From assembly GCF_000296695.1 (NCBI RefSeq), contig NZ_BAFK01000005.1, positions 1-64,000 on the forward strand: a stretch of DNA of 64,000 nucleotides, read 5' to 3'. Shown piece by piece: positions 926-18,472 of the stretch. Under the pieces are notes generated by a model. It was given only the letters and a program-made list of their open reading frames with translations, did not search any database and was not told the DNA's origin. The position numbers were made by a program, and so were the translations under genes. The DNA comes from Rheinheimera nanhaiensis E407-8 (lineage in GTDB: Bacteria > Pseudomonadota > Gammaproteobacteria > Enterobacterales > Alteromonadaceae). Each line of letters begins with the position of its first letter. Position 1 is the stretch's first letter.

Positions 926-2251
926 TTAGAGCGGGCGTGAACGTTTTTTTGTATTACCCAGCACCAACTCTGGCGGTAGGGTAAAGGAAAAACTGCTGCC
1001 TTTGCCCGGCTCGCTAAAGATCATTAAGCGGCTGTTATGCCGTGACAATACGTGTTTAACAATAGCCAGACCCAAACCAGTGCCGCCGGTATTGCGGGCG
1101 CGGGCTTCATCTACCCGGTAAAACCGCTCGGTTAAGCGTTTAACATGTTGCGGCGCTATACCGGGGCCATTGTCGTTTACCGAGAACACGGCTTTTACGT
1201 GCTGGCGCTGCCAGCTCACCTGAATATAGCCGCCCTCCTGAGTGTATTTAATGGCGTTAATCACCAGGTTAGAAAAGGCGCTGCGTAGCTCTTCGGTGAC
1301 ACCGGTCACTTTTAGCGTTGGGTCAATATCAAAGACCAACGTATGCTGCTTATCGCGGTTGACGGTTTGCGCTTCCTGCTCCAGCTGCAATAACATGGCA
1401 GGTACGTCTACTTCGGCGTCAAACTGTACCCGGGCCGAAGCTTCAATGCGCGATAAGGTCAGTAGCTGCTGCACTAAAGCATCCATGCGTTTGGTTTGGT
1501 CCAGCATCACGTTATGCGCCTTTTTCCACATGGCTTTATCCGGCAGATGTTCATCATCCATCACTTCCAGATAACCTTGCAGCACAGTAAGCGGTGTGCG
1601 TAGTTCGTGCGATACGTTAGCGACAAAGTCTTTGCGGATTTGCTCCAGTTGCTTTAGCTGGGTAATGTCGCGCACAATGAGTAAATATTGCTCAACACCG
1701 TACGGCATAATGTTAAATTCGAGCGTCAGGGCATCATTCACCGGCGAGGTTAGCTCTAGTGGCTGGTCGAATTTTGCTGCCTTTAAATACTGCAGAAAGT
1801 CAGGGTGGCGAATAAGATTGTCCAAACGCTGGCCTTCATCGGCCGGCCAATGCAACCCCACTAATATTTGCGCCAGCTGATTACACCAGATAATGCTCCA
1901 GTCATCGCGCAGTACCACCACGGCTTCCGGTAATGCTTCGGCACCGTCACGAAAACGGCGTACGACGTTGCGAAGCTCACGTCTTTTGCGACGATCGCGC
2001 CGCTGCAGGTAATAAATCCCCTCGAATAAATGCCCCCAAAGCCCTTCACTAATAGGTGGTGATAGTTTGCGGTCACGCCACAGCCATTTATCCATTAAAA
2101 ACAAATGATGGTAATGCCACAGCAGCAGCGCTACGGTAAAAATCAGCAGCGCCAGCAGCAGGCTGTTGGAAATAAGGCCAACCAGTGCAATAAAACAATA
2201 AAAAAGGAACAGCTTGGTGTACACCTTCCTTTTCGACAGCAGTTGGCGCAT
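926..2251 (-). CDS. phoR: Phosphate regulon sensor histidine kinase PhoR
   Basis: A 441-residue membrane kinase that phosphorylates PhoB when phosphate is scarce. Two adjacent hydrophobic segments (about residues 14-32 and 33-50) form the short N-terminal anchor typical of PhoR, without a large periplasmic sensor. A basic linker and a PAS domain (about 100-200) follow, then the dimerisation H-box VSHELRTP with phospho-acceptor His215. The ATPase domain shows the N-box (NLVINAIKYT), DNGPGI and GTGLGLAIVKH. It lies 17 bases after phoB in the same orientation, so phoB-phoR form one operon. Known PhoR is held inactive by the Pst transporter with PhoU, both encoded further along this window. Confidence 0.95.
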   Translation of the reverse strand: MRQLLSKRKVYTKLFLFYCFIALVGLISNSLLLALLIFTVALLLWHYHHLFLMDKWLWRDRKLSPPISEGLWGHLFEGIYYLQRRDRRKRRELRNVVRRFRDGAEALPEAVVVLRDDWSIIWCNQLAQILVGLHWPADEGQRLDNLIRHPDFLQYLKAAKFDQPLELTSPVNDALTLEFNIMPYGVEQYLLIVRDITQLKQLEQIRKDFVANVSHELRTPLTVLQGYLEVMDDEHLPDKAMWKKAHNVMLDQTKRMDALVQQLLTLSRIEASARVQFDAEVDVPAMLLQLEQEAQTVNRDKQHTLVFDIDPTLKVTGVTEELRSAFSNLVINAIKYTQEGGYIQVSWQRQHVKAVFSVNDNGPGIAPQHVKRLTERFYRVDEARARNTGGTGLGLAIVKHVLSRHNSRLMIFSEPGKGSSFSFTLPPELVLGNTKKRSRPL

Positions 2252-2268: not shown

Positions 2269-2955
2269 TTATTTGGCAGAGAAGCGGTAGCCAGAGCCCC
2301 GCACGGTTTGCACTAATCTATCATGGCCGGCGATAGAAATCGCCTTACGTAAGCGGCGGATATGTACATCGACAGTGCGGTCTTCCACATAGACATTGGT
2401 GCCCCAGACATGGTCCAGCAGCTGTTCACGGCTGTACACCCGCTCCGGGTGGGTCATAAAAAAGTGTAACAAGCGAAACTCGGTTGGGCCCATATCCAGT
2501 GGCGTATCCTGCGCCATCACCCGGTGTGACACCGGATCCAGTTTTAAGCCCTGCACTTCTATCACTTCATCCAGGCTGGTCGGTGCCACACGGCGGATCA
2601 CCGCTTTAATGCGTGCCATCAGCTCCTTGGGTGAGAAGGGTTTGGTCACGTAGTCGTCAGCGCCTACTTCCAGGCCGCGTACTTTATCTTCTTCCTCGCC
2701 ACGGGCGGTGATCATAATGATGGGAATGGTGCGGGTCAGCTCGTGTTGCTTCATTTTTTTTGCGATCTGAATGCCGCTGCCACCGGGCAGCATCCAGTCT
2801 AACAGCACTAAATCAGGGTAAGGCTCCACCAGCGCATTAATGGCAGAGTCAAAGTCCTCTGCGGTCGCGGCCTGATAGCCATTTTGCTCCAGCACAAAAC
2901 ACAACATATCGCGGATTGGGGCTTCATCTTCCACCACCAGGATCTTTCTTGCCAT
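2269..2955 (-). CDS. phoB: Phosphate regulon response regulator PhoB
   Basis: An OmpR-family response regulator of 228 residues. The receiver domain has the acidic pocket VVEDE, phospho-acceptor Asp53 (LLDWMLP) and Lys in VTKPF. The C-terminal winged helix ends in the PhoB-typical [11 protein letters not shown] and VRGSGYRF. The frame stays open for four more codons from a GTG at 2967. I chose the ATG at 2955 because it gives the standard [11 protein letters not shown] start and has GGTGG at a usable distance. PhoB activates genes through 11-bp direct repeats (Pho boxes). Such repeats lie before this gene and before several other genes in this window, so autoregulation is likely. Confidence 0.95.
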
Positions 2956-3033
2956 AGGGTCCACCACACTTTGGTTACCGGCTTGCTGCCGGGCTGTTGT
3001 AACTCGTTATGCCGCATAGTATTGCTGCAGTTT

Positions 3034-3051
3034 ATGACATTTTTATGAAAA
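3034..3051 (-). promoter_or_regulatory. Candidate Pho box before phoB
   Basis: The minus strand reads TTTTCATAAAAATGTCAT, which matches 14 of 18 positions of the Pho box consensus CTGTCATAAATCTGTCAT with two half-sites 11 bp apart. It lies about 80 bases before the phoB ATG, facing phoB. Confidence 0.6.
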
Positions 3052-3144: not shown

Positions 3145-3177
3145 TAAAGTGACAGCAAGATGAATTTTTTTTGACAG
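3145..3177 (-). promoter_or_regulatory. Candidate distal PhoB half-sites
   Basis: On the minus strand CTGTCA occurs at 3172-3177 and 3150-3155, exactly 22 bp apart, with a weak middle half-site (AATTCAT) in phase. The first 18 bases match the Pho box at about 13 positions. They face phoB but lie about 200 bases from it, so they could be an auxiliary site or chance. Confidence 0.35.
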
Positions 3178-3215: not shown

Positions 3216-3259
3216 GCGTCACATTAGCGACGCATTAGTGTAATAAAAGCGTCACTTCG
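3216..3259 (+). promoter_or_regulatory. Four 11-bp direct repeats, probable PhoB array before the lipoprotein gene
   Basis: Four consecutive 11-mers read GCGTCACATTA, GCGACGCATTA, GTGTAATAAAA and GCGTCACTTCG. The period and the pattern (GTCA followed by an A/T-rich tail) match tandem PhoB half-sites, though the first bases differ from CTGTCA. The array ends 62 bases before the lipoprotein ATG, the usual place for a PhoB-activated promoter. Confidence 0.5.
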
Positions 3260-3321
3260 TTTGTGTAGGGTGCCAGCAACTTTTTTGGCAACACCCAAAA
3301 TAACACAACGGAGAAAAGGTA

Positions 3322-6003
3322 ATGGCTTTAGGCAAACTGATTAAACTGAGCGCTATCGCATCAGCACTTATGCTGGCTGGTTGTGGCGGCGACTTAGTGG
3401 TTAACGCAGGCGGCAATGATTCAGGTGGTAACAATGGTGGCGGTAACCCACCGCCGGCAACCAGTGATTGCCCAGCCTTTGCTACTGAAGGTCAAAGCCT
3501 GGCGGGCGTAAACAAAACGGTGTGCGAAATTAGCGGCACTATTACCAGCGACACCCGTTTAACAGCAGATATCGCCTGGTCTTTAAGCGGCAAAGTTACC
3601 GTAGGTAATGACAATGCCAACAGCGCTACGCTGACCATTGAACCCGGTACCACCGTATTTGGTAAAAGTGGCGCCGACTATCTGGTAGTTGCCCGCGGCT
3701 CGAAAATTCAGGCAGTGGGCACTGCAAACGCGCCCATTATCATGACATCAGTAAACGATATGCTGGGCCTGTCAGATGACGAGTCCACCGCAGAATGGGG
3801 CGGCTTGGTGTTGTTGGGTAATGCCCCTACCACCAAATGTGATCAGGCGAATCTGGAAAATTGCCAGGTAGAGGCTGAAGGTGAAGCCGGCCCTTACGGC
3901 GGTGCCGATCCTGACGATGACAGCGGTGCTCTGCGTTATGTGCAGGTACGTTATGCCGGTTTTGAAGTACTGCCGGATAACGAATTAAACGGCATTACCT
4001 TTGCCGGTGTTGGTCGCGGCACCGAAGTGGAATATATTCAGGTGCATAACAACTTGGATGACGGTGTGGAATTCTTCGGCGGTACAGTCGATGCCAAATA
4101 CGTGGTGCTAACCGGCAACCGTGATGATTCCTTAGATTGGGCTGACGGGTGGCAAGGTCGTATGCAGCATGTGCTTATTCGCCACAACCCGAACGACACT
4201 AAAGCCAACCGCGGTATTGAAGCAGATAACCAGTCAGATAACTTTACCGCCGAGCCAGTATCTAAACCGCGTATCGCCAATATGACCATTATTGGCAATA
4301 ACTTTGATGGCGAAGATGACTCAGAAGGCATTTTGCTGCGTGCAGGTACTGCAGGTGAGTTGTATAACGTTATTGTTACTGGCCCGGCGGGTATGGGCGA
4401 GTGCTTTGAGATTAACTCTGATGAGTCAGTCGCCAATGCGCAAAACAGCGAAATTATTTTCCGCAACTCAATTATCGACTGTACTGAACCGTTTAAAAAC
4501 TCTGTAGATAGCAATGGCAACGTCACGCTGGATGCTGAAGCCTGGTTCCGCGCACAGCCGGGTAACATTGTTGGCGATGCGTTATTAGGTGGCTATATCC
4601 CAGCCCCTAACTCACCAGCGCTTGGCAATGGCTATAACGTAGCAAACAATGTTGATCCCTGGTTTGATAACGTAGATTACATTGGCGCTTTTGACGGCGA
4701 AACCGACTGGACCCTGGGCTGGACTGTTGGTATTCACCCGGAAGATGACTTAGCCGCTTGCCCGGCTGGCACCACTGAAGTAAACAGCCTGTCTGGCCGG
4801 TTAAACTGTCAGTTATCCGGTGACATTACCTCTAACATCACGCTGGCAGCTGGTGCTGACTATGTGCTGAGCGGCCGGGTGCGTGTTGGTATAGATAATA
4901 CCACTGCCGCTACCTTAACTATTCAGCCTGGCGTACGCATTTATGGTAAATCCGGTGCCGACTTTCTGGTAATTACCCGCGGCTCAAAAATTGATGCCAA
5001 CGGTACTGCGGCCAACCCTATTGTGATGACCTCAGTACAAGACATCATAGGCTCACCGACTGCAGCCGGCCAATGGGGCGGCTTGGTATTACTGGGTAAG
5101 GCGCCAAGCACCAAGTGTGACCAGGCTGACTTAGCCAGCTGTGAAATTCAGGCTGAAGGCGAAGCCGGCCCCTACGGTGGTGCCGATTGGGCAGACAACA
5201 GCGGCCGCTTAAACTATGTGGTAGTAAAACATGCCGGCTTTGAAGTTATCCCGGATAACGAGTTAAACGGTATTACCTTTGCCGGTGTTGGCTCTGGCAC
5301 TCAGTGCAGCAACATTCAGGTGCATCAGAACGTTGATGATGGTGTTGAGTTTTTCGGTGGCGCGGTTAACTGTAAGAACGTGGTACTGACCGCTAACGGT
5401 GATGACTCGGTAGACTGGGCTGACGGCTATCGCGGTAAGCTGCAATTTGTATTGGTAAAACACGCTGCCGATGACGCTAAAGCTAACCGCGGTATTGAAG
5501 CCGATAACCAGGCAGACAACCTGACTGCGACTCCGGTATCTAACCCTATCGTTGCCAACATGACCATTATCGGTAACAACTTCGATGGCGATGATGACTC
5601 AGAAGGCGTGCTGCTGCGTGCCGGTACTAACGCCAAGTTGCATAACTTTGTTATCACTGGCCCGGCCGGTATGGGCGAATGTTTAGAGTTGGCATCCACA
5701 GAAACGAAAGCCTTTGCTATCGATGGCTCATTAGAAATGACGCACTCGGTTATCGCTTGTGCTGAGCCATTCACCGGTGATTTGGGTAACGGCACCAGCA
5801 CAGAGCAGTGGTTCCTTGGCCAGACCGGCAACAGCGTAGCGGCTAACCAGGCTGCGGTGCTGGATGGTATCTTCACTATCGACGCCACTGCACCTAAAGA
5901 TATGACCGCAGTAGACAGCTTCTTTGAAGCCGTCGACTTCATCGGTGCGGTTGAAGCAGCAAATGACTGGACTGCTGGCTGGACGGTTGGCTTAGACGAC
6001 TAA
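3322..6003 (+). CDS. Large outer-membrane lipoprotein with two tandem beta-helix-like units
   Basis: An 893-residue lipoprotein: a signal peptide ends at LAGC with the lipidated Cys21, followed by a Gly/Asn/Pro-rich linker to about residue 48. The rest consists of two homologous units of roughly 415-430 residues starting at Cys50 and Cys480. Both repeat the same landmarks in order: GKSGAD, GSKI, WGGLVLLG, EGEAGPYGGAD, DNELNGITFAGVG, DDGVEFFGG, NRGIEADNQ and ITGPAGMGEC. This points to internal duplication. The short repeating strands resemble a right-handed parallel beta-helix, but no catalytic motif is recognised. It has AAGG-type translation signals, a PhoB-like array upstream and a TonB-dependent receptor downstream, so it is probably a surface partner of that receptor in phosphate starvation. 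The ligand is unknown. Confidence 0.75.
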   Translation: MALGKLIKLSAIASALMLAGCGGDLVVNAGGNDSGGNNGGGNPPPATSDCPAFATEGQSLAGVNKTVCEISGTITSDTRLTADIAWSLSGKVTVGNDNANSATLTIEPGTTVFGKSGADYLVVARGSKIQAVGTANAPIIMTSVNDMLGLSDDESTAEWGGLVLLGNAPTTKCDQANLENCQVEAEGEAGPYGGADPDDDSGALRYVQVRYAGFEVLPDNELNGITFAGVGRGTEVEYIQVHNNLDDGVEFFGGTVDAKYVVLTGNRDDSLDWADGWQGRMQHVLIRHNPNDTKANRGIEADNQSDNFTAEPVSKPRIANMTIIGNNFDGEDDSEGILLRAGTAGELYNVIVTGPAGMGECFEINSDESVANAQNSEIIFRNSIIDCTEPFKNSVDSNGNVTLDAEAWFRAQPGNIVGDALLGGYIPAPNSPALGNGYNVANNVDPWFDNVDYIGAFDGETDWTLGWTVGIHPEDDLAACPAGTTEVNSLSGRLNCQLSGDITSNITLAAGADYVLSGRVRVGIDNTTAATLTIQPGVRIYGKSGADFLVITRGSKIDANGTAANPIVMTSVQDIIGSPTAAGQWGGLVLLGKAPSTKCDQADLASCEIQAEGEAGPYGGADWADNSGRLNYVVVKHAGFEVIPDNELNGITFAGVGSGTQCSNIQVHQNVDDGVEFFGGAVNCKNVVLTANGDDSVDWADGYRGKLQFVLVKHAADDAKANRGIEADNQADNLTATPVSNPIVANMTIIGNNFDGDDDSEGVLLRAGTNAKLHNFVITGPAGMGECLELASTETKAFAIDGSLEMTHSVIACAEPFTGDLGNGTSTEQWFLGQTGNSVAANQAAVLDGIFTIDATAPKDMTAVDSFFEAVDFIGAVEAANDWTAGWTVGLDD

Positions 6004-6012
6004 CAGCAATAA

Positions 6013-6046
6013 ACACTGCCGGGTTTTGCCTGGCAGTGTTTTTTTA
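6013..6046 (+). terminator. Rho-independent terminator after the lipoprotein gene
   Basis: The 8-bp stem ACACTGCC/GGCAGTGT is followed by a run of T. It lies just after the lipoprotein stop, so the downstream receptor is expressed either by partial read-through or from its own promoter. Confidence 0.8.
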
Positions 6047-6124
6047 TTCCACTGCATTGCACCGACAAGGTTTTTGTTTGTGCAGGCACGTTGTAACCCT
6101 AAACGCTGATAGGACAAAGTTCAG

Positions 6125-8785
6125 ATGAGCAGCATGCAAAAGTTTAATTTCAGTCGTGTTGGCCGCAGTGTGCTGCTGGCGCTAAGCACAGCAACCGCCC
6201 TGGTTTCATTAAACGCCCTGGCGCAAGATAACCAGACGCAACCGGCAACTGCTGAAGAAGATGTTGAACGTATTTCTGTTTCCGGTCGCCTGATGAGCTC
6301 AGCCGCCTCTGCGGCCGCAGAGCGGCGCGAGCAACCGTACGTCGCCGAATTATTAGGTATGGAGCAAATCTCCCGCGCCGGCGATAGCAACGCTGCTACT
6401 GCGCTGCGTCGGGTAACCGGTTTAACGCTGGTAAAAGACAAGTTTATTTATGTACGGGGTTTGGGCGAGCGTTACTCCAGCACCCTGCTAAATGGCGCTC
6501 AGGTGCCAAGCCCGGACCCAACGCGTAACGTGATACCGCTGGATATGTTCCCGGCCGGCATCATTGAAAGCCTGGTGGTGCAAAAAGCCTACTCACCTGA
6601 GCTGCCGGCCGCCTTTGGCGGTGGTAATGTTAATATCCGCACCACAGCGATTCCGCTGCAAACCACCTTTAGCACCTCTGTTGGCACTGGCTACAACAGC
6701 CTGAACAGTAACGATGGCTTTAGTTATGCCGGCGGCAGTGATGACTGGCGTGGCAAAGATGATGGCTTGCGTGGTATATCGCCGGCCTTGTCTGCGGCAC
6801 AAGCCCAATATGGCACCCTGACTCCGGTGAATATTGCCGAAGCCTTAGGCGGTATTAATGCCACTAACCTGGCTCAGGCTGAAACCATAGTGCGTGAGCT
6901 TGGCACTGCGTTCAACCGCGATATTGATGTAAAGCCTACCAGCGTAAAGCCTGATTTTGATGGCAGCGTGTCTTTGGGCTCGCGTTTTGATTTGGCGAAA
7001 AACGTGGTATTTGGCGTCATGAGTGGTGTCAGTTATGACCGCGCGACGCAAAATATTGAAGAGCAGGAACGTTATTACTCGGTATCGGGTGATAATTTGC
7101 TACCGCTAAACCGTTATGACGACATTAAAGGCACCGAGCATCAGGTTAAGCTGTCTGGCATGCTGAACTTTGGTTTAGAGCTGGGGGTAGACCACCGGCT
7201 GGAGACTGCCACTATTTATCTGCGCGATACCAAAGATGAGATAAAAATTAAGAACGGTGACAGTATCGAAACCATCAACGAGGCTAACCGTTCTAACACC
7301 GATACCAGCATTTTATATGAAGAGCGCAGCATGCTAAGCAACCAGCTGCGTGGCCGGCATAACTTCCCGTACCTGATGGACTTAGCGGTTGACTGGCAGT
7401 ATACCGACGCCAAAGCGCGCCGCTATGCCCCGGGCGAGGTAGAATATCGCCGCTTAAATGAAACCCAGGCCGATGGCTCAGTGTTTTCGTTTTTGCGCCG
7501 TAACCAAAACGCAGTCAATTACAGTTTTGGTGATATGAAAGATAACACTGAAAACTTCAGTTGGAATGCTAAGCTCCCACTGACTCTGGGCAAAGCGGAA
7601 ATGACATTCAGCGGCGGTTACAGTTATTTTGAACGCAGCCGCAACGCCCAAACCGATCGCTTTAACTTTGATACCGTAGGGTATAGCTTGCAGCAGCTCT
7701 CTGGCAGCTTCTCTGAGATATTCTCTGACGACAACATTTTAAACCCGGATAACGGCTTTAAAATTTCTAACGTGACAACACAGGCCGACGATTACCTGGC
7801 CGCGCAAATGATCGATGCCGGTTATGGTGCGCTCGAGCTGAACTACGATTATAAGTTCCGCCTAAATCTGGGTGTGCGCTATGAAGATTTTAAGCAAATT
7901 TCGCTGCCGATTGGGGCGGATGGCGATATCAGCGGCAACCTGACCGATTCGGTGCTGTTAGAAGATGGCTTCTACCCGGCGCTGTCGCTGACCTGGTTTA
8001 TCAATGACGATTTACAGGCACGTTTTGGTTACAGTAAAACCGTAGTGCGGCCGGATTTACGCGAAGTAACACCGGTGCTGTATGTTGACCCATTGACCGA
8101 CTTTAAAGTAACCGGTTTTGCCGGCCTGAAAAGTACCGACATCAACAGTGCTGATGTGCGGTTAGAGTGGTACTTTGATACCAGTAACTACAGTATTGGC
8201 CTGTTCTATAAAGACTTAGACAACCCGATTGAAGCAATCGAGTTATCAGGTTCTGATGGCAACCTGCTGATGTCGTTCCGTAACGCGCAAAGCGGCGAAG
8301 TGTATGGCGCTGAAGCTGAGTTTTTACAACAGTTAGACATGTTTGGCGGCGACGCAGGACAATGGCTGAATAACTTCTTCGTTGCCGGTAACCTGACCGT
8401 CAGTGAGTCTGAAATTACCATTCAGCCGTTCCCGGGCGCTGATTTAACCAATCTTAAACGTGGTTTAAGCGGCCACTCTAAGTACGTGGCTAACCTGCAG
8501 TTGGGCTTTGACTCAGACAACAACCAGCACAATGCTACCCTGACCTACAACGTGTTTGGTAAACGGATTGCGTTTGCCGGCGTAAACGACAAAGACGACG
8601 CCTTCGAGCAACCGTTTAACTCGCTAGACTTCACCTACAGCTATACCCCCACCGAGAGCATGACGGTGAAACTGGGGCTAAAAAACCTGCTGGATGAAGA
8701 CGTAGAAATTTTGCAACAAGGCGAAATTCTGCAAAAACGTGTTGAAGGCCAAAGCTATAGCTTAAGTTTCTCGTATAAATACTAA
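6125..8785 (+). CDS. TonB-dependent receptor, probably phosphate-starvation linked
   Basis: An 886-residue outer-membrane receptor that would import a large substrate with energy from TonB-ExbBD. A signal peptide ends near ALAQ (about residue 34). A possible TonB-box-like segment (VERISVSG) follows, then a plug domain with ATALRRVTGLTL, KFIYVRGLGERYSSTLLNG and a GGGNVNIRT end. The remainder is beta-barrel with alternating aromatic strands and a terminal aromatic residue (SFSYKY). It follows the duplicated lipoprotein by about 120 bases, with a terminator between. The pairing with a surface lipoprotein beside phoBR suggests uptake of a phosphorus-containing compound, but the substrate cannot be read from the sequence. 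I saw no good Pho box directly before this gene. Confidence 0.85.
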   Translation: MSSMQKFNFSRVGRSVLLALSTATALVSLNALAQDNQTQPATAEEDVERISVSGRLMSSAASAAAERREQPYVAELLGMEQISRAGDSNAATALRRVTGLTLVKDKFIYVRGLGERYSSTLLNGAQVPSPDPTRNVIPLDMFPAGIIESLVVQKAYSPELPAAFGGGNVNIRTTAIPLQTTFSTSVGTGYNSLNSNDGFSYAGGSDDWRGKDDGLRGISPALSAAQAQYGTLTPVNIAEALGGINATNLAQAETIVRELGTAFNRDIDVKPTSVKPDFDGSVSLGSRFDLAKNVVFGVMSGVSYDRATQNIEEQERYYSVSGDNLLPLNRYDDIKGTEHQVKLSGMLNFGLELGVDHRLETATIYLRDTKDEIKIKNGDSIETINEANRSNTDTSILYEERSMLSNQLRGRHNFPYLMDLAVDWQYTDAKARRYAPGEVEYRRLNETQADGSVFSFLRRNQNAVNYSFGDMKDNTENFSWNAKLPLTLGKAEMTFSGGYSYFERSRNAQTDRFNFDTVGYSLQQLSGSFSEIFSDDNILNPDNGFKISNVTTQADDYLAAQMIDAGYGALELNYDYKFRLNLGVRYEDFKQISLPIGADGDISGNLTDSVLLEDGFYPALSLTWFINDDLQARFGYSKTVVRPDLREVTPVLYVDPLTDFKVTGFAGLKSTDINSADVRLEWYFDTSNYSIGLFYKDLDNPIEAIELSGSDGNLLMSFRNAQSGEVYGAEAEFLQQLDMFGGDAGQWLNNFFVAGNLTVSESEITIQPFPGADLTNLKRGLSGHSKYVANLQLGFDSDNNQHNATLTYNVFGKRIAFAGVNDKDDAFEQPFNSLDFTYSYTPTESMTVKLGLKNLLDEDVEILQQGEILQKRVEGQSYSLSFSYKY

Positions 8786-8788
8786 CGT

Positions 8789-8814
8789 AAAAGGCCCCGT
8801 AAGGGGCCTTTTTA
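8789..8814. terminator. Bidirectional terminator between the receptor and ompW
   Basis: The stem AAGGCCCC/GGGGCCTT is flanked by A on the left and T on the right. It can end the receptor transcript on the plus strand and, less strongly, the ompW transcript on the minus strand. Confidence 0.85.
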
Positions 8815-8890
8815 TTCAAACTATAATCCAGGCTTGACTCACTTCAGCTTCATCGTTACATCTGGTTAGATAAGCCCATTCAATACGATG

Positions 8891-9595
8891 TTAGAAGTAG
8901 TACTTCACACCAAACATACTAACAATTGGGTCGATTTGAATGTTGACACTTTGGATGCTTGCGCCATTTAAACGAACGTCTGCATCGGTATCAATGTCAA
9001 TTTTACTTATCATTGCATGGATACCCCAATTGCTGTTGAGCCGCCAGTCAAAGCCCGCTTGATAAGCCAGACCAAAGCTACCATCAAGGTTTAACCCGAC
9101 ACTGTCCTGAGCAGTTGCAACGCCAAAACCAATCAAAGCCTGCTTTAAATCGTCTGAGGCCTTTTCGCTAAAAAAGTGCGTGTAGTTGGCGCCGACACCG
9201 ATAAAGGGCGCAAAGTCTGAGCTAGATTTTAGTGGGTAATAACGGGCAAACACTGTGGGTGGTAAGTGTTTTGTTTCACCTATTGCTAAGCCATCAATAG
9301 CAGAGCCTGACACCCTGGCTCTGTGACTAAATGGTGTAGCAGCTACCACACTGGCAGACCAATAATCATTGAAGGCATAATCAAGGACAATACCAAGCTG
9401 CGTATTGTCATTCACGGCAACGCGTGTAGACCCATCAGGCAGCTGAGCAACCTGTTCAACTACGTTCAAATTGCCACTGCTCTCTTCCGGCGCTACTGTG
9501 ATAGGACCAACATTGATTGACCACTGCGCCATAGCGCTGAAGCAACTCAAACCTAAAGCACCTACGATAATTTTTTTAAACTTGAACATTTGCAT
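8891..9595 (-). CDS. ompW: OmpW family outer-membrane protein
   Basis: A 234-residue protein with a signal peptide cleaved near MAQ-W (about residue 24). It has an eight-stranded barrel pattern and the OmpW-typical ending (IDPIVSMFGVKYYF) with a terminal Phe. The segment LPPTVFARYYPL is characteristic of the family. OmpW proteins form small channels for hydrophobic molecules and are often stress or respiration responsive. The ATG has AGGGGA five bases upstream. A strong terminator for the preceding gene lies only about 15 bases before this start, so expression depends on read-through or on a promoter inside or before that hairpin. Confidence 0.88.
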   Translation of the reverse strand: MQMFKFKKIIVGALGLSCFSAMAQWSINVGPITVAPEESSGNLNVVEQVAQLPDGSTRVAVNDNTQLGIVLDYAFNDYWSASVVAATPFSHRARVSGSAIDGLAIGETKHLPPTVFARYYPLKSSSDFAPFIGVGANYTHFFSEKASDDLKQALIGFGVATAQDSVGLNLDGSFGLAYQAGFDWRLNSNWGIHAMISKIDIDTDADVRLNGASIQSVNIQIDPIVSMFGVKYYF

Positions 9596-9610
9596 AGCAT
9601 TCCCCTATCG

Positions 9611-9640
9611 TTAAAAAAATCCCCCTTCAAACGAAGGGGG
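9611..9640 (-). terminator. Terminator inside the ompW leader
   Basis: On the minus strand the stem CCCCCTT/AAGGGGG is followed by ATTTTTTT. It closes the upstream NTF2-like gene and lies immediately before the ompW start. Confidence 0.8.
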
Positions 9641-9647
9641 ATACCAG

Positions 9648-10208
9648 TCAGTTTGCCGCGTAAGGCAATGACGAGTGATGGAGAACTATACGAAGCTTAC
9701 CTTCTGCATCCTTTTTAAAACCCCAGGTCTTATCAACAGTGGTGGTTTTGCCTGACTTGTCAGTTACATGAACATGCCCCATGGTCAGTGCAAGGTCGCC
9801 GTTCAGGTAAACCCCTGCGTTTTCATATTCATATTTCTTCCAACCCTTTAAGGCGAAGCCACCATCTTGGGCAAAGTTTTTGTCGCCTGCTACAAAGTAT
9901 GACAAGGCGCCATCGTAGGTGGTGCGGAAGGTTTGCTCGCCGTTAGCCAGAGTCGGCTTAAACAACACTGCGCCCATGTTATAACCATAAGCAGCATCCA
10001 GTACTTGTTTTGCTACTGCCTTAGCAGCCGCAGCACCTTTTTGCTCGTGCGTGTTACTGATATTTATCAGTGCCTCACCCCAAGCTTGTTGCGCGGCTTT
10101 GACTTCTGCCAGCGTAATAGTGTTATTTACAACTTTTTCAGCAAATGCAGCAGACGAGAACAACACTGCCGCCGCACATAATGTTACTTTATTCAGAGCT
10201 AGTTTCAT
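9648..10208 (-). CDS. Secreted NTF2-like (SnoaL-type) protein of unknown function
   Basis: A 186-residue exported protein with a signal peptide ending in AFA-E. The remainder looks like an NTF2/SnoaL cone fold: an N-terminal helix containing QQAWGEALINIS, then strands including AGVYLNGDLALTMGHVHVTDKSG and a C-terminal TWGFKKDAEGKLRIVLHHSS. Relatives are sometimes labelled phosphoribosyl-AMP cyclohydrolase, which this sequence does not support. The frame is open from a GTG at 10214, but the ATG at 10208 follows GAGG at correct distance and begins a normal signal peptide. It lies between a two-component system and ompW, all on the same strand, and may be a target of that system. Confidence 0.65.
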   Translation of the reverse strand: MKLALNKVTLCAAAVLFSSAAFAEKVVNNTITLAEVKAAQQAWGEALINISNTHEQKGAAAAKAVAKQVLDAAYGYNMGAVLFKPTLANGEQTFRTTYDGALSYFVAGDKNFAQDGGFALKGWKKYEYENAGVYLNGDLALTMGHVHVTDKSGKTTTVDKTWGFKKDAEGKLRIVLHHSSLPYAAN

Positions 10209-10297
10209 AAACACCTCACTTTATTAATCAGCGAGGTAATAATGACTCATCGGGGCATAACTAATCCTGACGGAGAGATTAACAATAGCTGCTAATA

Positions 10298-10315
10298 AAC
10301 ATGAACAGAACATGA
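10298..10315 (-). promoter_or_regulatory. Direct repeat with 11-bp period, possible response-regulator site
   Basis: On the minus strand TCATGTT occurs twice exactly 11 bp apart (plus-strand AACATGA at 10298 and 10309). It lies about 90 bases before the NTF2-like gene and just beyond the end of the OmpR-family regulator gene. OmpR-type regulators bind such tandem sites, so the neighbour is the obvious candidate. Confidence 0.35.
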
Positions 10316-10327
10316 CAGCTTCGCCAT

Positions 10328-11017
10328 TTAAGACACCTGCATAGCATCAGCAGATATGCTGTAGCCTATACCACGAAACGTTTGAATATACTTAGCGTTA
10401 AAATCATCATCAATTTTTCTTCTTAACCGCCTGACGTAAACATCGACTACGTTAGTTAACGGATCTGTATTCATTCCCCACACATTGGCTAAAATTCGCT
10501 CACGACTAAAGACTTTTCCAGGTTGAGACAATAGCAAATCGAGTACTTGTAGCTCTTTAGCTGTCAGCTTTATAGCAACGCCCGCCCTGTTAACCTTCAA
10601 GGCCGACTTGTCATATTCCAGTTCACCCAGTTTAATCAGCTGCTCTGCGCTTGGAGCACTGTTGCGTTTTAATAATGCCTGAATACGCGCAAGCAGCTCC
10701 TCAAAAGCAAAGGGCTTTCCAAGGTAATCATCAGCTCCACGATTTAAACCCAATACTCTGTCGGGTACTTCATTTAAGGCAGATAACATCAGAATTTTTG
10801 CTGTAATACCTTTTGCCCGCATTCGCGAGCACAGCTCAATGCCATCAATATTTGGCAACATTCTGTCAAGAATGATCAGAGCAGGCTGAACTTGAAGCAC
10901 CAAATCGACAGCGTCTTTACCGTCTGAGCAACATTGAACAAGAAAACCTTCGCTTTTTAGGCCCCGCTCAAGGAAACCGGACACACGCAGATCATCTTCA
11001 ATAATTACGATACTCAT
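10328..11017 (-). CDS. OmpR-family response regulator
   Basis: A 229-residue regulator with a receiver domain (acidic IIEDD, phospho-acceptor Asp51 in LDRMLP, Lys in LGKPF) and a winged-helix domain ending in VDVYVRRLRRKI and TFRGIGYSI. Its start overlaps the stop of the sensor kinase gene by 4 bases, so the two are translationally coupled and form a pair. It resembles the CusR/QseB/CopR type more than PhoB, but the signal is not known. Likely targets are its own operon and the downstream NTF2-like and OmpW genes. Confidence 0.88.
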   Translation of the reverse strand: MSIVIIEDDLRVSGFLERGLKSEGFLVQCCSDGKDAVDLVLQVQPALIILDRMLPNIDGIELCSRMRAKGITAKILMLSALNEVPDRVLGLNRGADDYLGKPFAFEELLARIQALLKRNSAPSAEQLIKLGELEYDKSALKVNRAGVAIKLTAKELQVLDLLLSQPGKVFSRERILANVWGMNTDPLTNVVDVYVRRLRRKIDDDFNAKYIQTFRGIGYSISADAMQVS

Positions 11018-12606
11018 GGCAGAAAACCCTCTAAGCCAATTCTAAACATGACAGTTGTACCCTGGTGTAAACGACTTTTTAGCTGAATAAAACCGCGATG
11101 CTGCTCTATCAGGTATTTTGCTAATGACAAACCGATACCTAAACCGTCAGGCCTCAGCTTTCTGGCATTGTCACCACGATAGTAACGATCAAAAACGCTA
11201 TTTAGCTCATAATCCGCGATACCAATGCCATAGTCTGTGATGCTAACCTCGAACTGGTTATTACTAATGCTTACCACCATATCCAGTGCAGTAGTTGCCG
11301 GCGAGTAACGCACAGCGTTATCGAACAATATTTGCCAAGCTTGTAACAACTTACCCATATCAACCCTGATGCAGTGCTCAGACATTTCGACAGCATCGTC
11401 GAAATGTAATCTAAGCTCCCTACCCTGTACCTTAGCCTCTCTTTGCGCTTTGCTGACTAACTCTGTTGCAACTTCAACCAGTGGCACTGACTGCACATCA
11501 AGCAATGCCATACTGTTCTCACCACGAATGAGTAGTAATAAATCATCAATCCTTCCCGAAAGCGCAGCACTGGCATCCAAAATACGTTTTAACGTTTCTT
11601 TGTATTCTTCAGCTGTTTTATCTTTTCCTCTAAGCCCAATTTCGGCCTCTCCCCGTATAGCGGTAGCTGGGGTGCGTAGCTCATGACTGACATCAGCAAA
11701 AAATTGTTTTTGTTGTGCTTCGGCCTGCTTAAGCTGTTCAAGCGCGTGTTTAAGCTGTGCCGTGCGCGACGATACCTCTTGCTCTATTTCAAGCGTATGG
11801 CGTAACTCAGCTTGGCGTGCCTCTTCCAAAGCTGCAGACATGGTATTGAAACTCGTCGCAACGTTTCTAAATTCTTTATCGTCTAACTCAGCGATACGGT
11901 GGGTAAAATTACCTGACGCCACCGCTGAAGTTCCCTCCAGCAAACGGGTAATAGGGGAATATAGTGCCCGCAGCAAAAGTACAGCCAACAACACCGCAGT
12001 TATGCTACCGAATACGGCTAAGGACAATACTATTGTTCTAACCTTTGACAATGCATCGACCGCTGCTGATTCAGCTTTTGATGCGCGCTGCCGTTGAAGT
12101 TCGATCGCCTCTGCAATTAGGCTTTTTAAATCAAGCCCCTCTAGTTTATCGAACGTTTGTATTAGAAGTCGCCAAATCTCTGCTTCACTAAGCGTTATCG
12201 ATTCCTTGTCCAACAAACTGCGCTTTAGCGCAAAAATATTGGTTTCAAGAATGGAGAGCGCCCTTATCTGACGATTTACTTCCTGATAATCCTGTTCATC
12301 ATCTGATAGCAGCTGATCATTAACCAGCAGTGACTGTAAGTTACTGAGAATGTGCTCCATCTGCACTAACAATCTATCCCGCTCACTCAATGGCGCGTCA
12401 TTGGTTAACAAATACTGCGCTAGCCAAACCTTCAGTCGTTGTTTGTCGGCACCTAGCGCGATAAATTCGGCCAGCATCTGATTAGATACCCTACCTCGCT
12501 CAACATGATAGGCGGCTATCCCTGATGTCCAAAATGCGGCTACGGCCTGAACAATACAGAACATAACCAGCAAACCAAATGATAAGAGCAAACGATTTCG
12601 GTACAT
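11014..12606 (-). CDS. Membrane sensor histidine kinase with HAMP domain
   Basis: A 530-residue kinase: TM1 at about 7-28, a helical periplasmic domain of about 165 residues, TM2 at about 192-213, a HAMP linker (about 214-266), a coiled coil, and the H-box FADVSHELRTP with His308. The ATPase domain shows DNAVRYSP, DYGIGI and GLGIGLSLAKYLI. The all-helical periplasmic part suggests a four-helix-bundle sensor. It is the partner of the response regulator whose start overlaps its stop. The signal is unknown; context offers outer-membrane or envelope conditions. Confidence 0.88.
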   Translation of the reverse strand: MYRNRLLLSFGLLVMFCIVQAVAAFWTSGIAAYHVERGRVSNQMLAEFIALGADKQRLKVWLAQYLLTNDAPLSERDRLLVQMEHILSNLQSLLVNDQLLSDDEQDYQEVNRQIRALSILETNIFALKRSLLDKESITLSEAEIWRLLIQTFDKLEGLDLKSLIAEAIELQRQRASKAESAAVDALSKVRTIVLSLAVFGSITAVLLAVLLLRALYSPITRLLEGTSAVASGNFTHRIAELDDKEFRNVATSFNTMSAALEEARQAELRHTLEIEQEVSSRTAQLKHALEQLKQAEAQQKQFFADVSHELRTPATAIRGEAEIGLRGKDKTAEEYKETLKRILDASAALSGRIDDLLLLIRGENSMALLDVQSVPLVEVATELVSKAQREAKVQGRELRLHFDDAVEMSEHCIRVDMGKLLQAWQILFDNAVRYSPATTALDMVVSISNNQFEVSITDYGIGIADYELNSVFDRYYRGDNARKLRPDGLGIGLSLAKYLIEQHRGFIQLKSRLHQGTTVMFRIGLEGFLP

Positions 12607-12709: not shown

Positions 12710-13816
12710 TTAGAAATGGTACTGAGCCCGAACCCCAAAGCCAATAGGCTCCTCGGTTACCCCTGACGGTGTATCAATATCGCTAAACACAATGTTGCCC
12801 ATAAACCGAAGGTTATTTAACAAGTAATAGTTAACGCCCAATGTAAGATTTTTCTGCTCACCACCAAAAACAGTACCGTCATTCAAATCGGTGACAGAGT
12901 ACCGTGCAGCAACCTCAATAGCGCCAGACTCTTTTGATGGCTTAACGCCGCTAAACAAACCATTCTTGTACGAACGGCTCTCGCCAGTTAACACATAACT
13001 TAATTGAAAGTGATATCCAGAGAAGGAAACATCTTCAACTGTTGACGAAGTGCTTAGTGTCATCGCTTCAGCTTCGGCTGACCAGGCACCATTAATTAAG
13101 GCAGCCTCCAAACCAAAACGATTGATGGAATTTATGCCTTCCAGAGTACCGGTATCGATTAAACGCACACCAGAGTCAATACGTAGCTCAGGACGGTCTC
13201 GCAATCTAAGCGTGTTATAGTCACCCATGTCCTGATACACGAAAGCACCAGCAAAATGATACTGAACATCATCAACTTTTGGATGGTAAATAATCCGCTG
13301 AGCAAGCCCCATACTGTCGTCTTTGCCAGCATCGCCCTCTGTATTCATGGTGCGGCCGAACAACATAGATTCTGATGTTAAGTTACCGAAGGTTTTATCA
13401 AACCGCACGCCTAACTTACGGTCAGGGGTAATAACCGTAGAGCCGCTTGAGCGCTCCATAAAAGTAATAGAGTTGGAGCTGGTTAGGGTGTTTAGACTAA
13501 ACGGCACGCGCTGGTGGCCGATAGTCACATTGCCACCAGCCAGTTTAGTGCGAATATTTACATCAGCTGCTGAGGCATCGCCACCTTCAGCGAAGTCATA
13601 CTCAATAACAAAACGCCAATCAGGCGATAAATTGCCCTGCATACCAAGACGCCCACGACGCACATTAAAACCGTTACCAATTTCCGTAACATCGTCTTTG
13701 TACATACCCGCATCAAGATGCATTCTACCACGAGGCGTGATTTCCACTTCGGCAAGTGCGCTACCAGTGAAAGCACCAACGGCTAGGGCAACTAAAACTT
13801 TGCTATTTGTCTTCAT
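12710..13816 (-). CDS. Phosphate-selective porin (OprO/OprP family)
   Basis: A 368-residue outer-membrane channel of the OprO/OprP type, expected to pass phosphate or polyphosphate into the periplasm. It has a signal peptide ending in ALA-E, the family-typical N-terminal VRRGRLGMQGNLSPDWRF.IEYDF region, FMERSSGS and DRKLGVRFDK, and a C-terminal Phe after FGVRAQYHF. The frame is open to 13858, but the ATG at 13816 has AGGAT at good spacing and begins a standard signal peptide. A cluster of Pho-box half-sites lies 50-100 bases upstream, which independently supports phosphate-limited expression. The terminator after it makes it a single-gene unit. Confidence 0.88.
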   Translation of the reverse strand: MKTNSKVLVALAVGAFTGSALAEVEITPRGRMHLDAGMYKDDVTEIGNGFNVRRGRLGMQGNLSPDWRFVIEYDFAEGGDASAADVNIRTKLAGGNVTIGHQRVPFSLNTLTSSNSITFMERSSGSTVITPDRKLGVRFDKTFGNLTSESMLFGRTMNTEGDAGKDDSMGLAQRIIYHPKVDDVQYHFAGAFVYQDMGDYNTLRLRDRPELRIDSGVRLIDTGTLEGINSINRFGLEAALINGAWSAEAEAMTLSTSSTVEDVSFSGYHFQLSYVLTGESRSYKNGLFSGVKPSKESGAIEVAARYSVTDLNDGTVFGGEQKNLTLGVNYYLLNNLRFMGNIVFSDIDTPSGVTEEPIGFGVRAQYHF

Positions 13817-13864
13817 GATTAATCCTATCCCAATCTCTAGTTTTGACCCAGGCATCATATGTCA

Positions 13865-14041: not shown

Positions 14042-14767
14042 TTAGTCACGCCGCTTTTCCACGACCTGCTGCAGTTCATCGTCAGTTAAATGCGCGACAT
14101 TGCGGCCTTTGCAGAGAAAAATAGTGTGCTGGCAAATATTACGCGCATGGTCGCCCACCCGCTCCAGTGCTTTGGCCACCTGAGAAATTTGCAGGCTAAC
14201 ACCAATTTGACTGGCATCGTCCATCATACTGCTTAAGCTATGCTGCATAATCTGGGCGTAATCATCATCAATGGCTTTATCTTCACGCAGCACAGCAAGG
14301 GCGGTATCAGCATCCATTTGTTCAAAGGCGGTGATAGCCCGCGCCAGCATTTGCTGCACTTTGGCGCCCATGGTATTCAGCTGTGCCAGTTGAGCCTCTG
14401 TTGGCCGGTTGCCGCTTTCATCTTTTAGCAGGGCTTTGGCAATACGTTTGGCCAAATCGCCGATACGCTCAATATCATTGACACTTTTTAGTACCGAGAG
14501 CACCAAGCGCAGATCGGTCGCCGCCGGCTGACGCCGCGCCAAGATATCCAGGCAATGTTCATCGATATCTACTTCAAAGTTATTTACCGTGCGATCGCCT
14601 TGCTTTACTTGCTTTGCCAAAGCACGATCGGCATTAATAAAAGCCGTCATCGCATCGCTAAGCTGCTGCTGTGCCAATGTGGCCATGGCCAACAGCCGCT
14701 CTACCGCCTGGCGTAATTCGTCATCATAGGCCTGTGAATAGTGGCCACCGATCTTGTTATTGAGCAT
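14042..14767 (-). CDS. phoU: Phosphate signalling protein PhoU
   Basis: A 241-residue, all-helical cytoplasmic protein made of two PhoU repeats, each with the E/D-xxxD metal-ligand helices. Examples are the LKSVNDIERIGDLAKRIAK segment in the first and VAKALERVGDHARNICQH in the second. PhoU links the Pst transporter to PhoR and keeps the kinase off when phosphate is plentiful. The ATG has AGGAG nine bases upstream. It is the last gene of pst-phoU, 35 bases after pstB. Confidence 0.96.
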   Translation of the reverse strand: MLNNKIGGHYSQAYDDELRQAVERLLAMATLAQQQLSDAMTAFINADRALAKQVKQGDRTVNNFEVDIDEHCLDILARRQPAATDLRLVLSVLKSVNDIERIGDLAKRIAKALLKDESGNRPTEAQLAQLNTMGAKVQQMLARAITAFEQMDADTALAVLREDKAIDDDYAQIMQHSLSSMMDDASQIGVSLQISQVAKALERVGDHARNICQHTIFLCKGRNVAHLTDDELQQVVEKRRD

Positions 14768-14802
14768 AACGCCTGTCTCCTGCTAACGCTGCTATGCCGG
14801 TA

Positions 14803-15573
14803 TTAACCGTAGCGGCCGGTAATGTAATCTTCGGTACGTTTTTGCTGTGGGTTGGTAAAGAGATCATTGGTGTTACCAATTTCAATTAAATTACCCAGAT
14901 GGAAAAACGCGGTTCTGTCTGACACCCGTGCTGCTTGCTGCATATTGTGGGTCACGATGACGATGGTGAAATTTTGCTTCAGCTCGTCGATCAGCTCTTC
15001 AATAATAGAGGTGGCGATGGGATCCAGTGCCGAGCAGGGCTCGTCCATTAGGATCACTTCCGGGCTTACCGCTATGCTGCGGGCAATGCACAGACGCTGC
15101 TGCTGACCACCGGACAAGCCCGTGCCAGGCTGATCCAGCCGGTCTTTTACTTCATTCCATAAACCGGCCCGGCGCAGGCTGGACTCGACAATGTCATCTA
15201 AGTCGGCTTTGCGTTCAGCCAGGCCATGCAATTTCGGGCCATAAGCAATGTTTTCATAGATAGACTTCGGGAACGGGTTCGGCTTTTGAAACACCATGCC
15301 TACCTGTGCTCTTAACTGCACCACATCCAAAGACGGATCATGAATGTCGCGGCCATCCAGTGTAATGCTGCCGGTTACCCGGCAATGTTCTATGGTGTCG
15401 TTCATCCGGTTCATACAGCGTAAAAAGGTAGATTTACCGCAGCCCGACGGGCCGATAAACGAGATCACTTCGTTTTCGTAGACATCCATGCTGATACCAT
15501 GTAATGCCTCATTTTCGCCATAAAACACTTTGACATCTTTGGCACTGATTTTTACCGCAGCTGAATTACTCAT
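14803..15573 (-). CDS. pstB: Phosphate ABC transporter ATP-binding protein PstB
   Basis: A 256-residue ATPase that drives phosphate import through PstC-PstA. Walker A is GPSGCGKST (41-49), the signature LSGGQQQR (153-160), Walker B VILMDEP (173-179), and the switch His is in VTHNMQQ. The segment [10 protein letters not shown] after Walker A is typical of PstB. Length is normal. It lies between pstA and phoU on one strand with short gaps. Confidence 0.97.
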
Positions 15574-15630
15574 CTGTTTTTCCGTTCGCTAAATTTAAAC
15601 GTTGTGAAAGCCTGGCCGGACAAAGCGCCG

Positions 15631-17001
15631 TTACCAGCGCTTCTCATATTTTTTACGCAGCCAGATGGCCAGCCCATTCAGGCTTATCATCATCAGTAGC
15701 AGCACAATAATGGCCGCTGAGGTACGGGCTTCAAAGAAATTACGCAGCTCATTGCCCTGCCACAAGTAAATTTGTACCGGCAAGGCTGATGCTTGTTCAA
15801 AAGGCGATGCCGGGATGGACGCCACAAAAGATTTCATGCCGATTAACAGCAGTGGCGCGGTTTCGCCCAGCGCTTGCGCCACGCCCAAGATGGCGCCGGT
15901 TAAAATACCCGGAATAGCCAGCGGCAGTACATGATGGAAAATCGCCTGCATTTTTGACGCGCCAAGCCCCAATGCCGCCTGGCGGATTGATGGCGGTATG
16001 GCTTTTAACGTCGAGCGGGTGGCAATAATCACCGTTGGCAGTGTCATTAACGACAACACTAAACCGCCGACAATAGGCGCCGACATTGGTAAATTAAACC
16101 AGCCAATCAGTACCGAAGCGCCCAGCAGACCAAACACGATAGAGGGCACCGCCGCCAGGTTATTAATATTCACTTCGACCAGGTCGGTCAGCTTGTTGCG
16201 CGGAGCAAATTCTTCTAAGTAAATCGCGGCGGCTACACCCATGGGTACTGCCAATAAAATCACCACCAGCATCATATAGAACGAGCCCATAAAGGCACCG
16301 GCCAAACCGGCTGAAGCCAGCGAGCTGCGCGAGTCCGGGTTCATAAACAGTGCCAGACTAAAACGGTTTTGAATTACCCCCTCGGCTGACAGCTTATCTA
16401 TCCATTCTCGCATTTTCGGGCTTAGCTGCTGCTGCGCATCGGGCAGGCTGCGGTCAATATTGCCTTTTAACCAAACATCGATGTTGGCATCGGTAAGCAG
16501 GTGCAGGCTGCGGGTCTGACCAATAATAGACGGGTCGGCAATCACCATGTCACGCAGGGCAAAGCGCTCGCCTGAAGTGACGATGCGGCCCAGATCGCGC
16601 CGGTGCTTGCTGGCGTCAGGCAGTATTTTTTGCAGGCTGTCGGTGATCAGGCGGTTAAAGTTAACAAAGCCAACCTGTGTCTGCCAATCCAGATAACGCT
16701 GACGAAAATCGTTGTCACTCTCATCCGCTGCTTGCTCTGGTTTTGCCGGGATCTTGATGATCTGCGGGTCAAAATAGATCTCCAGTGTAATGGCCGACTG
16801 CCAGAACGCTGGCAGCCCTTTGGAGAAAATATTAATAAATAATAAGGCGACCAGTGACAAGCTAATCAACACTGCCAACAGGCCAGTGCGGCGAAACCAG
16901 GCCTCTTTACGGTGACGGCGGTTTAGCGATGCGATTACCTTTTGCTGCACCTGGCTTGGGTGCACCACGGTTTTTATCGGGTTTTCTGCAAGAATCGTCA
17001 T
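15631..17001 (-). CDS. pstA: Phosphate ABC transporter permease PstA, long form
   Basis: A 456-residue inner-membrane permease, against about 300 in Escherichia coli. After a basic N-terminus a membrane helix (about 40-60) is followed by an extra periplasmic region of about 170 residues. The conserved permease core begins near residue 235 and carries the EAA loop (RQAALGLGASKMQAIFHHVLPLA, about 340-365). The start lies only three bases after the pstC stop, so the two permeases are coupled. Long PstA/PstC forms are usual in Shewanella-like bacteria. The role of the insertion is not known. Confidence 0.93.
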   Translation of the reverse strand: MTILAENPIKTVVHPSQVQQKVIASLNRRHRKEAWFRRTGLLAVLISLSLVALLFINIFSKGLPAFWQSAITLEIYFDPQIIKIPAKPEQAADESDNDFRQRYLDWQTQVGFVNFNRLITDSLQKILPDASKHRRDLGRIVTSGERFALRDMVIADPSIIGQTRSLHLLTDANIDVWLKGNIDRSLPDAQQQLSPKMREWIDKLSAEGVIQNRFSLALFMNPDSRSSLASAGLAGAFMGSFYMMLVVILLAVPMGVAAAIYLEEFAPRNKLTDLVEVNINNLAAVPSIVFGLLGASVLIGWFNLPMSAPIVGGLVLSLMTLPTVIIATRSTLKAIPPSIRQAALGLGASKMQAIFHHVLPLAIPGILTGAILGVAQALGETAPLLLIGMKSFVASIPASPFEQASALPVQIYLWQGNELRNFFEARTSAAIIVLLLMMISLNGLAIWLRKKYEKRW

Positions 17002-17004
17002 AAC

Positions 17005-18463: not shown

Positions 18464-18472
18464 CTGGCAGGC

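Follow-up and report, generated by a model that had tools for sequence, protein, structure and literature searches.

A tandem-unit lipoprotein of the ElpS/FII kind and its TonB-dependent receptor beside phoBR in Rheinheimera nanhaiensis

Phosphorus is a growth-limiting nutrient in many aquatic and soil environments. In Caulobacter crescentus, the lipoprotein ElpS (CC0170) has been described as induced by inorganic phosphate (Pi) starvation, surface exposed and released with the aid of type II secretion. Its overproduction is reported to increase alkaline phosphatase activity in culture supernatants, although ElpS itself is described as lacking that activity and deletion of elpS as leaving phosphatase activity unchanged (PMC2996285). 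The PhoB regulon of this species is reported to include the type II secretion system and various TonB-dependent receptors (TBDRs) (PMC11208175). In Flavobacterium johnsoniae, the phoBR cluster is described with OprP, a TonB-dependent transporter (TBDT) and the lipoprotein FII, the latter two being strongly induced by Pi depletion. The same source gives FI, FII and FIII as 31-36% identical to the Caulobacter protein and states their homology to ElpS, ranks one family member with the most strongly induced proteins of Flavobacterium under Pi starvation, and suggests glycan binding or hydrolysis from homology modelling (PMC8115612). Here we analyse a lipoprotein gene and a TBDR gene next to phoB and phoR in Rheinheimera nanhaiensis E407-8 (the window: 64,000 nucleotides of contig NZ_BAFK01000005.1, in a genome of 4.0 Mb), which we read as a tandem-unit variant of the ElpS/FII type of lipoprotein-TBDR pair, almost certainly under Pho control.

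By analogy, we regard this pair as the counterpart of ElpS/CC0170 and CC0171, and of FII and the TBDT of the F. johnsoniae phoBR operon. With ElpS it shares a lipobox-bearing outer-membrane lipoprotein, an adjacent TBDR gene and a phosphate-starvation response, the latter as a Pho-responsive promoter predicted in silico. Homologues of the window family also show the lipoprotein-TBDR-gspC-gspD-gspE order described for CC0170-CC0171-gspC (PMC2996285), and the order lipoprotein-TBDR-gsp is found in annotated records of Sphingomonas parapaucimobilis and Indioceanicola profundi. ElpS is described as a protein of about 50 kDa, the size of one unit, encoded beside type II secretion genes, whereas the window protein has two units and lies beside phoBR, with no type II secretion genes as neighbours. 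This kinship is drawn from the description and from the synteny of homologous relatives, not from an alignment with the CC0170 sequence.

The likeness to FII (Fjoh_0546) and its TBDT (Fjoh_0545), that is, to PUSIV, lies in the neighbourhood of OprP, phoR, phoB, TBDT and lipoprotein and in the pectin-lyase-type fold entry of FII, IPR011050 (PMC8115612). The window likewise brings together phoBR, a TBDT and a pectin-lyase-fold lipoprotein, the fold being taken from a model with no significant match in the PDB. FII belongs to another phylum, with the TBDT gene reported before the lipoprotein gene; it is likened here by description, and the Bacteroidota sequence compared is a Parabacteroides homologue. 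Two other systems are comparable in the way they work. SusCD-like PusCD of Flavobacterium combines a Pi-starvation TBDT with a surface lipoprotein (PMC8115612), but the window lipoprotein is modelled as a beta-helix, and a SusD-type identity was rejected because no Pfam domain, SusD included, was found in it. In BtuB-BtuG, a surface lipoprotein captures a ligand for a TBDT (PMC10404256); the ligand of BtuG is unrelated and the comparison is functional only.

A previous reading of this DNA from the sequence only had proposed a phosphate-controlled lipoprotein-receptor pair with an undescribed component. The Pho-linked unit stands, but the lipoprotein is not undescribed, as published work on ElpS and FI/FII/FIII already proposes a role connected with phosphorus. 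Our literature searches, which left subscription literature mostly outside their scope, retrieved no recognised paper on gammaproteobacterial, multi-unit or TonB-operon forms.

The gene pair and its Pho-box promoter

Judged by their family scores (Table 1), the phoB and phoR genes next to the lipoprotein gene are genuine; phoB stays below the cut-off of the NF007546 model (436 vs 471 bits). The TBDR was identified by its Pfam Plug and barrel domains, both above cut-off, and resembles TIGR01782 below that model's cut-off (207 vs 310 bits). The closest named relative found, Rheinheimera pleomorphica, has a lipoprotein 92% identical to that of the window. Both the position beside phoBR and the order lipoprotein-TBDR, noted from the sequence only, recur among 44 homologous loci from relatives' genome contigs (loci are labelled with L-numbers): phoB and phoR are present in 31, a pst gene in 19, and a TBDR lies directly downstream of the lipoprotein gene in 43. 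phoBR is missing from 13 loci: ten of Pseudidiomarina, L050, L053 and L029, whose contig ends 148 bases upstream and which was scored as not pho-linked. In the window, the porin O/P gene and phoU-pstBACS are located 4-11 kb from the pair.

The 11-bp repeat array before the lipoprotein gene, another element of the sequence-only reading, was recovered as a clear periodicity, with 19/33 matches at lag 11 and at most 14 at the other lags tested (5-19); only 2 of 2000 mononucleotide shuffles attained 19. By its sequence, we take the array to be a Pho-box array. Scored with a position weight matrix (PWM) for Pho boxes, its best 18-mer (3238-3255) ranks 17 of 127966 positions in the window and the array reaches p=0.02 against dinucleotide shuffles, making it a weaker Pho-box site than others in this genome. 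In 14 aligned Rheinheimera-group promoters, the run TGTAATAAAA, G and T in the second half-site, and the T, A and T that define the TAnnnT hexamer show no variation, whereas the flanks around box and hexamer diverge. The gap of 10 bases between the two is the spacing of Escherichia coli PhoB promoters.

For each of the 44 relatives, we ranked the top plus-strand site of the 350 bases preceding the lipoprotein gene within its own locus and obtained ranks of 1-22. Sites scoring at least 10 were found before 32/39 pho-linked lipoprotein genes, compared with 97/321 other genes of the same loci (the controls are the other open reading frames (ORFs) of each locus, pho and pst genes included). Groups without nearby pho genes gave 9/13 (controls 21/60), 9/17 (7/81) and 9/9 (6/56); the group labelled same family/order contains one same-class locus, L135. 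In the other classes of the phylum, the proportion was 15/23 (controls 10/98), made up of 5/12 (7/55) beside type II secretion genes and 10/11 (3/43) for the rest. Against dinucleotide shuffles, p<=0.05 was reached in 36/39 pho-linked and 42/62 other loci, 101 of 104 loci having been scored (L111, L138 and L151 were omitted because their lipoprotein ORF was not picked). Some loci, such as L122, L124, L126 and L128, show no credible Pho-box-like site before the lipoprotein gene. In the 8.4-kb stretch around phoX of the window genome, none of the five best Pho-box-like sites lies within 500 bp upstream of that gene; an expected Pho gene can thus go unmarked by the motif. On these sequence grounds, the pair is almost certainly Pho-regulated. 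A surface-type lipoprotein-TBDR unit under phosphate control, as had been proposed, is supported by this predicted promoter, by the phoBR linkage, by the frequency of TBDR neighbours in the wider sample described below, and by what is reported of Pi-starved relatives (PMC2996285, PMC8115612).

Between the two genes lies a hairpin followed by a T run, resembling an intrinsic terminator. Similar inverted repeats are legible by eye in the intergenic gaps of the Rheinheimera group and not in those of Pseudidiomarina. Such a terminator suggests that the lipoprotein could be made in excess over the TBDR.

Table 1. Features of the window relevant to the lipoprotein-TBDR pair (HMM, hidden Markov model; ranks are PWM ranks).
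Feature	Position	Strand	Basis
phoR	926-2251	-	NF008235 and TIGR02966, both above cut-off
phoB	2269-2967	-	TIGR02154 above cut-off (373 vs 296 bits)
Pho box of the divergent phoB promoter	3034-3051	-	rank 2 of 127966
Extra Pho-box-like direct repeats facing phoB, two overlapping 18-mers in the shared intergenic region	3149-3177	-	ranks 7 and 24
Four tandem 11-bp repeats before the lipoprotein gene, read as a Pho-box array	3216-3259	+	GCGTCACATTA GCGACGCATTA GTGTAATAAAA GCGTCACTTCG
Putative -10 element TAGGGT	3266-3271	+	10 bp after the last box of the array; TAnnnT invariant in 14/14 aligned promoters
ElpS-family outer-membrane lipoprotein gene (893 amino acids)	3322-6003	+	ORF; lipobox; two units
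Lipoprotein unit 1 (residues 50-473)	3469-4740	+	HMM domain; AlphaFold2 model
Lipoprotein unit 2 (residues 480-893)	4759-6000	+	HMM domain
Intrinsic-terminator-like hairpin and T run between the lipoprotein and TBDR genes	6011-6046	+	-22.6 kcal/mol; z -5.6; 0/200 shuffles as stable
TBDR gene (886 amino acids)	6125-8785	+	ORF; PF00593 and PF07715
Phosphate-selective porin O/P	12710-13858	-	PF07396
Pho-box-like 18-mers directly upstream of porin O/P	13859, 13889, 13900	-	ranks 5, 3 and 6
phoU, pstB, pstA, pstC, pstS	14042-19606	-	phoU, pstB, pstA and pstC above cut-off; pstS: PF12849
Pho-box-like site before pstC	18446		rank 1
Pho-box-like site before pstS	19611		rank 4

Between the TBDR and the porin (8891-12606) the window carries an OmpW-family gene, a gene for a secreted-type protein of 188 amino acids and a response regulator/kinase pair. 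Genes of equal size are found in L011, L013 and L017; they are absent from L010, where phoU-pst comes close behind. Past phoR (13-735) there is a lipase class 3-like protein of 240 amino acids.

Fold, conserved residues and unit number of the lipoprotein

Read from the sequence, the lipoprotein has the lipobox LAGC at residues 18-21, with Cys21 as the acylated residue, and a Gly/Asn/Pro-rich linker leading to unit 1. The tail behind the lipidated Cys is conserved, as CGG(G)D(I/L) on the Rheinheimera/Alteromonas side (window residues 21-30) and approximately as (V/I)ASPG in most lipoproteins of the phylum's other classes (L136-L160); it could act as a surface-export signal. Among the N-termini inspected in the 44 relatives and the sampled loci, several sampled lipoproteins have no lipobox.

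The two homologous units proposed earlier were recovered, with Cys50 and Cys480 as their first residues, and are 58% identical to each other. The lipoprotein has no Pfam or NCBIfam match up to E 0.01 and no PDB sequence match up to E 1, as single sequence or as profile, and 28 units of the family searched against family libraries gave one weak Beta_helix match only. The beta-helix-like fold suspected from the sequence is that of the AlphaFold2 model of unit 1 (mean pLDDT 94.8, pTM 0.94). Foldseek returned 285 PDB matches for this model up to E 10, none at E<=0.001. The best 50 comprise tailspikes, alginate epimerases, the pectate lyase Pel9A, a PL6 alginate lyase, polygalacturonases and similar proteins, all of which we take to be parallel beta-helices; TM-scores by query length do not exceed 0.35 among them. 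A BFVD search gave a single match at E<=0.001, to a phage tailspike of the same broad fold. A catalytic assignment from the fold neighbours was rejected for want of a significant structural match; likewise, no enzyme family or catalytic motif of Pfam or NCBIfam matched that would place the protein among the pectate-lyase-fold enzymes.

Five residues, D198, D219, D220, D223 and E251 (unit-1 numbering), are invariant in 99/99 units, and further acidic columns are nearly so (E137, D197 and E201 98%, E172 94%, D150 92%). The Parabacteroides homologue retains every one of them but D150, which is Glu there. Unit 2 of the window lipoprotein keeps D197, D198, E201, D219, D220, D223 and E251, so that both units carry the conserved acidic set. 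The only basic or His columns reaching 75% are R76 (97%; Pro in Parabacteroides), R291 (78%) and H193 (82%), and no Lys column does so across the 99 units; simple phosphate binding through basic residues was rejected on this account. The conserved residues point to an acidic face, possibly metal-binding or catalytic, which is the main new mechanistic clue of this analysis.

The number of units varies, being one in 13, two in 30 and three in 1 of the 44 loci, and one in 36 and two in 24 of 60 neighbourhoods sampled more widely. Our trees, of 44 and 66 rows, include a subset of the units. In the 66-row tree, the two units are sisters within L112, L117, L120, L136, L137, L140, L146 and L153, and the three units of L040 form one clade; separate unit-1 and unit-2 clades were recovered for the Rheinheimera, Alteromonas-like, L114/L115 and L133/L134 sets. 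The within-protein sisters suggest either repeated duplication or homogenisation of units within genes, between which the tree does not discriminate. The single unit of Rheinheimera sp. D18 is nested among unit-1 sequences, indicating a likely loss of unit 2.

Spread of the pair and its TonB operons

Profile searches found the family in 35/369 genomes from the class and 55/398 from the phylum, weak partial matches counted. The 60 neighbourhoods come from 59 of 84 other matching genomes and were hand-chosen, mostly among stronger matches. A TBDR is adjacent in 54 of them (44 downstream, 10 upstream), and Parabacteroides distasonis has the order TBDR-lipoprotein; the lipoprotein and the TBDR very probably work together. 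Genes of the pho or pst sets are present in 8/60 neighbourhoods, six of them in the window's own family; outside it are L118 and L127, the latter with the lipoprotein-family gene divergent from pstSCAB-phoU. Homologues were not found consistently beside unrelated regulons: away from pho genes, the neighbours are often type II secretion genes (15/60) or a TonB operon (14/60), and enrichment of Pho-box-like sites persists there. Neither the first 24 kb of the window nor any of the 44 loci has type II secretion genes adjoining the pair, and the cluster of the window genome lies on another contig. As this adjacency varies inside the family, we did not treat it as defining.

A TonB/ExbB/ExbD/TPR operon adjoins the pair in 13/44 loci as well (at least four queries of the TonB set matching), an arrangement that fits energised import. 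In the Alteromonas-like loci L038, L040 and L041 the order is phoB-phoR-PstS-like-(other gene)-lipoprotein-TBDR-DUF3450-ExbB-ExbB-ExbD-TonB-TPR, and the Alteromonas macleodii plasmid pBGP9 is annotated with the same gene order. On this 239-kb plasmid (L177, 7498-11568), the series phoB-phoR-PstS-like-lipoprotein (1356 amino acids)-TBDR-TonB cluster is complete. In Pseudoalteromonas replicons the TonB operon precedes the pair. A second, reversed arrangement, with TonB-set genes, then TBDR, then lipoprotein, was seen in L109, L113, L116 and L117, where the TBDRs exceed 1000 amino acids when measured (1071 in L109). The DUF3450-ExbB-ExbD-TonB operon of the window genome lies away from the pair, on a different contig next to genes of central metabolism. 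The model of the window TBDR (mean pLDDT 69.3, plug poorly predicted at <50) matches heme, siderophore and transferrin receptors in general and gives no pointer to a substrate.

Family members also occur in other settings. Of 21 plasmid records with a family match, 7 were examined, and a Marinobacter plasmid copy has no neighbouring TBDR. L050, from Arsukibacterium tuosuense, encodes a second, divergent protein of 1027 amino acids (8159-11242) with one C-terminal family unit and no adjacent TBDR; the best Pho-box-like site of that locus (score 21.5, rank 1) lies upstream of its gene. In L122, L125, L126 and L127 the family unit is C-terminal in proteins without a recognised lipobox, some of which presumably have a TPR/anti-sigma-like N-terminus.

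Possible function of the pair

We consider it somewhat probable (about 0.58) that this is a PhoB-activated outer-membrane pair that captures and imports a phosphorus source. The elements of this reading computed here are gene identity, promoter, linkage, co-occurrence, fold, acidic conservation and terminator; Pi-starvation induction and surface display are carried over from printed relatives. When phosphate is scarce, phosphorylated PhoB would bind the 11-bp array and switch on the lipoprotein gene, and the terminator behind it would keep lipoprotein output above that of the TBDR. The lipoprotein, lipidated at Cys21, would be displayed on the cell surface through its flexible linker. Its two beta-helix units would hold a phosphorus-containing ligand with their acidic face; the contact would probably run via a divalent metal bound there, or via a glycan or organic moiety of the ligand, and not directly between phosphate and basic residues. 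We further infer a complex with the TBDR, to which the ligand would be handed for TonB-energised import, leaving the later steps to Pst and periplasmic phosphatases; ligand, metal and transport direction belong to the same inference. A more specific version, a multivalent metal-bridged trap, is tentative and rather unlikely: a carboxylate ladder would hold divalent cations (e.g. Ca2+) that catch the phosphate groups of polymeric or mineral-associated phosphorus, with avidity tuned by one, two or three units and import through the TBDR with its own co-encoded TonB-ExbBD motor.

Several observations weigh against capture and import. The invariant charged residues are acidic rather than basic, which is unexpected for a direct phosphate binder and speaks against binding of the phosphate anion as such. 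The PWM derives from seven E. coli sites, and 20/62 loci not beside pho genes have no significant Pho-box-like site; 6/60 sampled neighbourhoods have no adjacent TBDR. No phosphatase gene or substrate-linked enzyme recurs beside the pair in the inspected layouts, in which not all unlabelled neighbours were identified, and our family, fold and layout searches yielded no substrate or catalytic evidence for the import of organic or polymeric phosphorus that had been proposed from the sequence. In Caulobacter, elpS is reported as induced and cc0171 as constitutive, and the rise in phosphatase activity on ElpS overproduction does not require import (PMC2996285).

Alternatively, the lipoprotein may act enzymatically. 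As a hydrolase, lyase or depolymerase of pectate-lyase fold with a catalytic acidic face, it would cleave a surface polymer that is phosphorylated or shields phosphorus, and the TBDR would import the product. The tailspikes, epimerases, lyases and polygalacturonases among the best 50 of the 285 PDB matches would agree with this, the five invariant residues would suit acid catalysis, and the modelling-based suggestion for the Flavobacterium proteins points to glycans (PMC8115612). The low TM-scores of those same matches, none of which attains E<=0.001, the silence of the enzyme family libraries and the reported inactivity of ElpS as an alkaline phosphatase (PMC2996285) make this reading rather doubtful. 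The supernatant effect of ElpS overproduction has also led to the proposal that such proteins activate or anchor another extracellular phosphatase, with a separate role for the TBDR; type II secretion neighbours in 15/60 layouts and in Indioceanicola and Sphingomonas would be in line with it. We find this unlikely, as elpS deletion is reported to have no effect on phosphatase activity (PMC2996285), such neighbours are missing from the window and the 44 loci, and the near-constant TBDR partner is left unexplained. Least probable of all is a Pho-regulated pair serving adhesion, an S-layer-like coat, vesicle cargo or metal scavenging: it would accommodate a possibly metal-binding acidic face and the six neighbourhoods without an adjacent TBDR, but not the persistent TBDR pairing, often with a TonB operon.

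Phosphorus capture and import remains our preferred reading. What this locus and its relatives add to the described systems are forms with two or three units, which are often each other's nearest relatives within one genome, a TonB/ExbBD operon that adjoins the pair in marine relatives, the intergenic terminator, a confident beta-helix model and a set of invariant acidic residues. They outline a surface-lipoprotein family that pairs with TBDRs under Pho-box-like promoters in several classes and extends to Bacteroidota. Given the fold model, a set of invariant acidic residues and unit numbers that vary, the question of its ligand can be tested directly, and the co-encoded TonB operon points to an energised outer-membrane uptake of something other than free phosphate.

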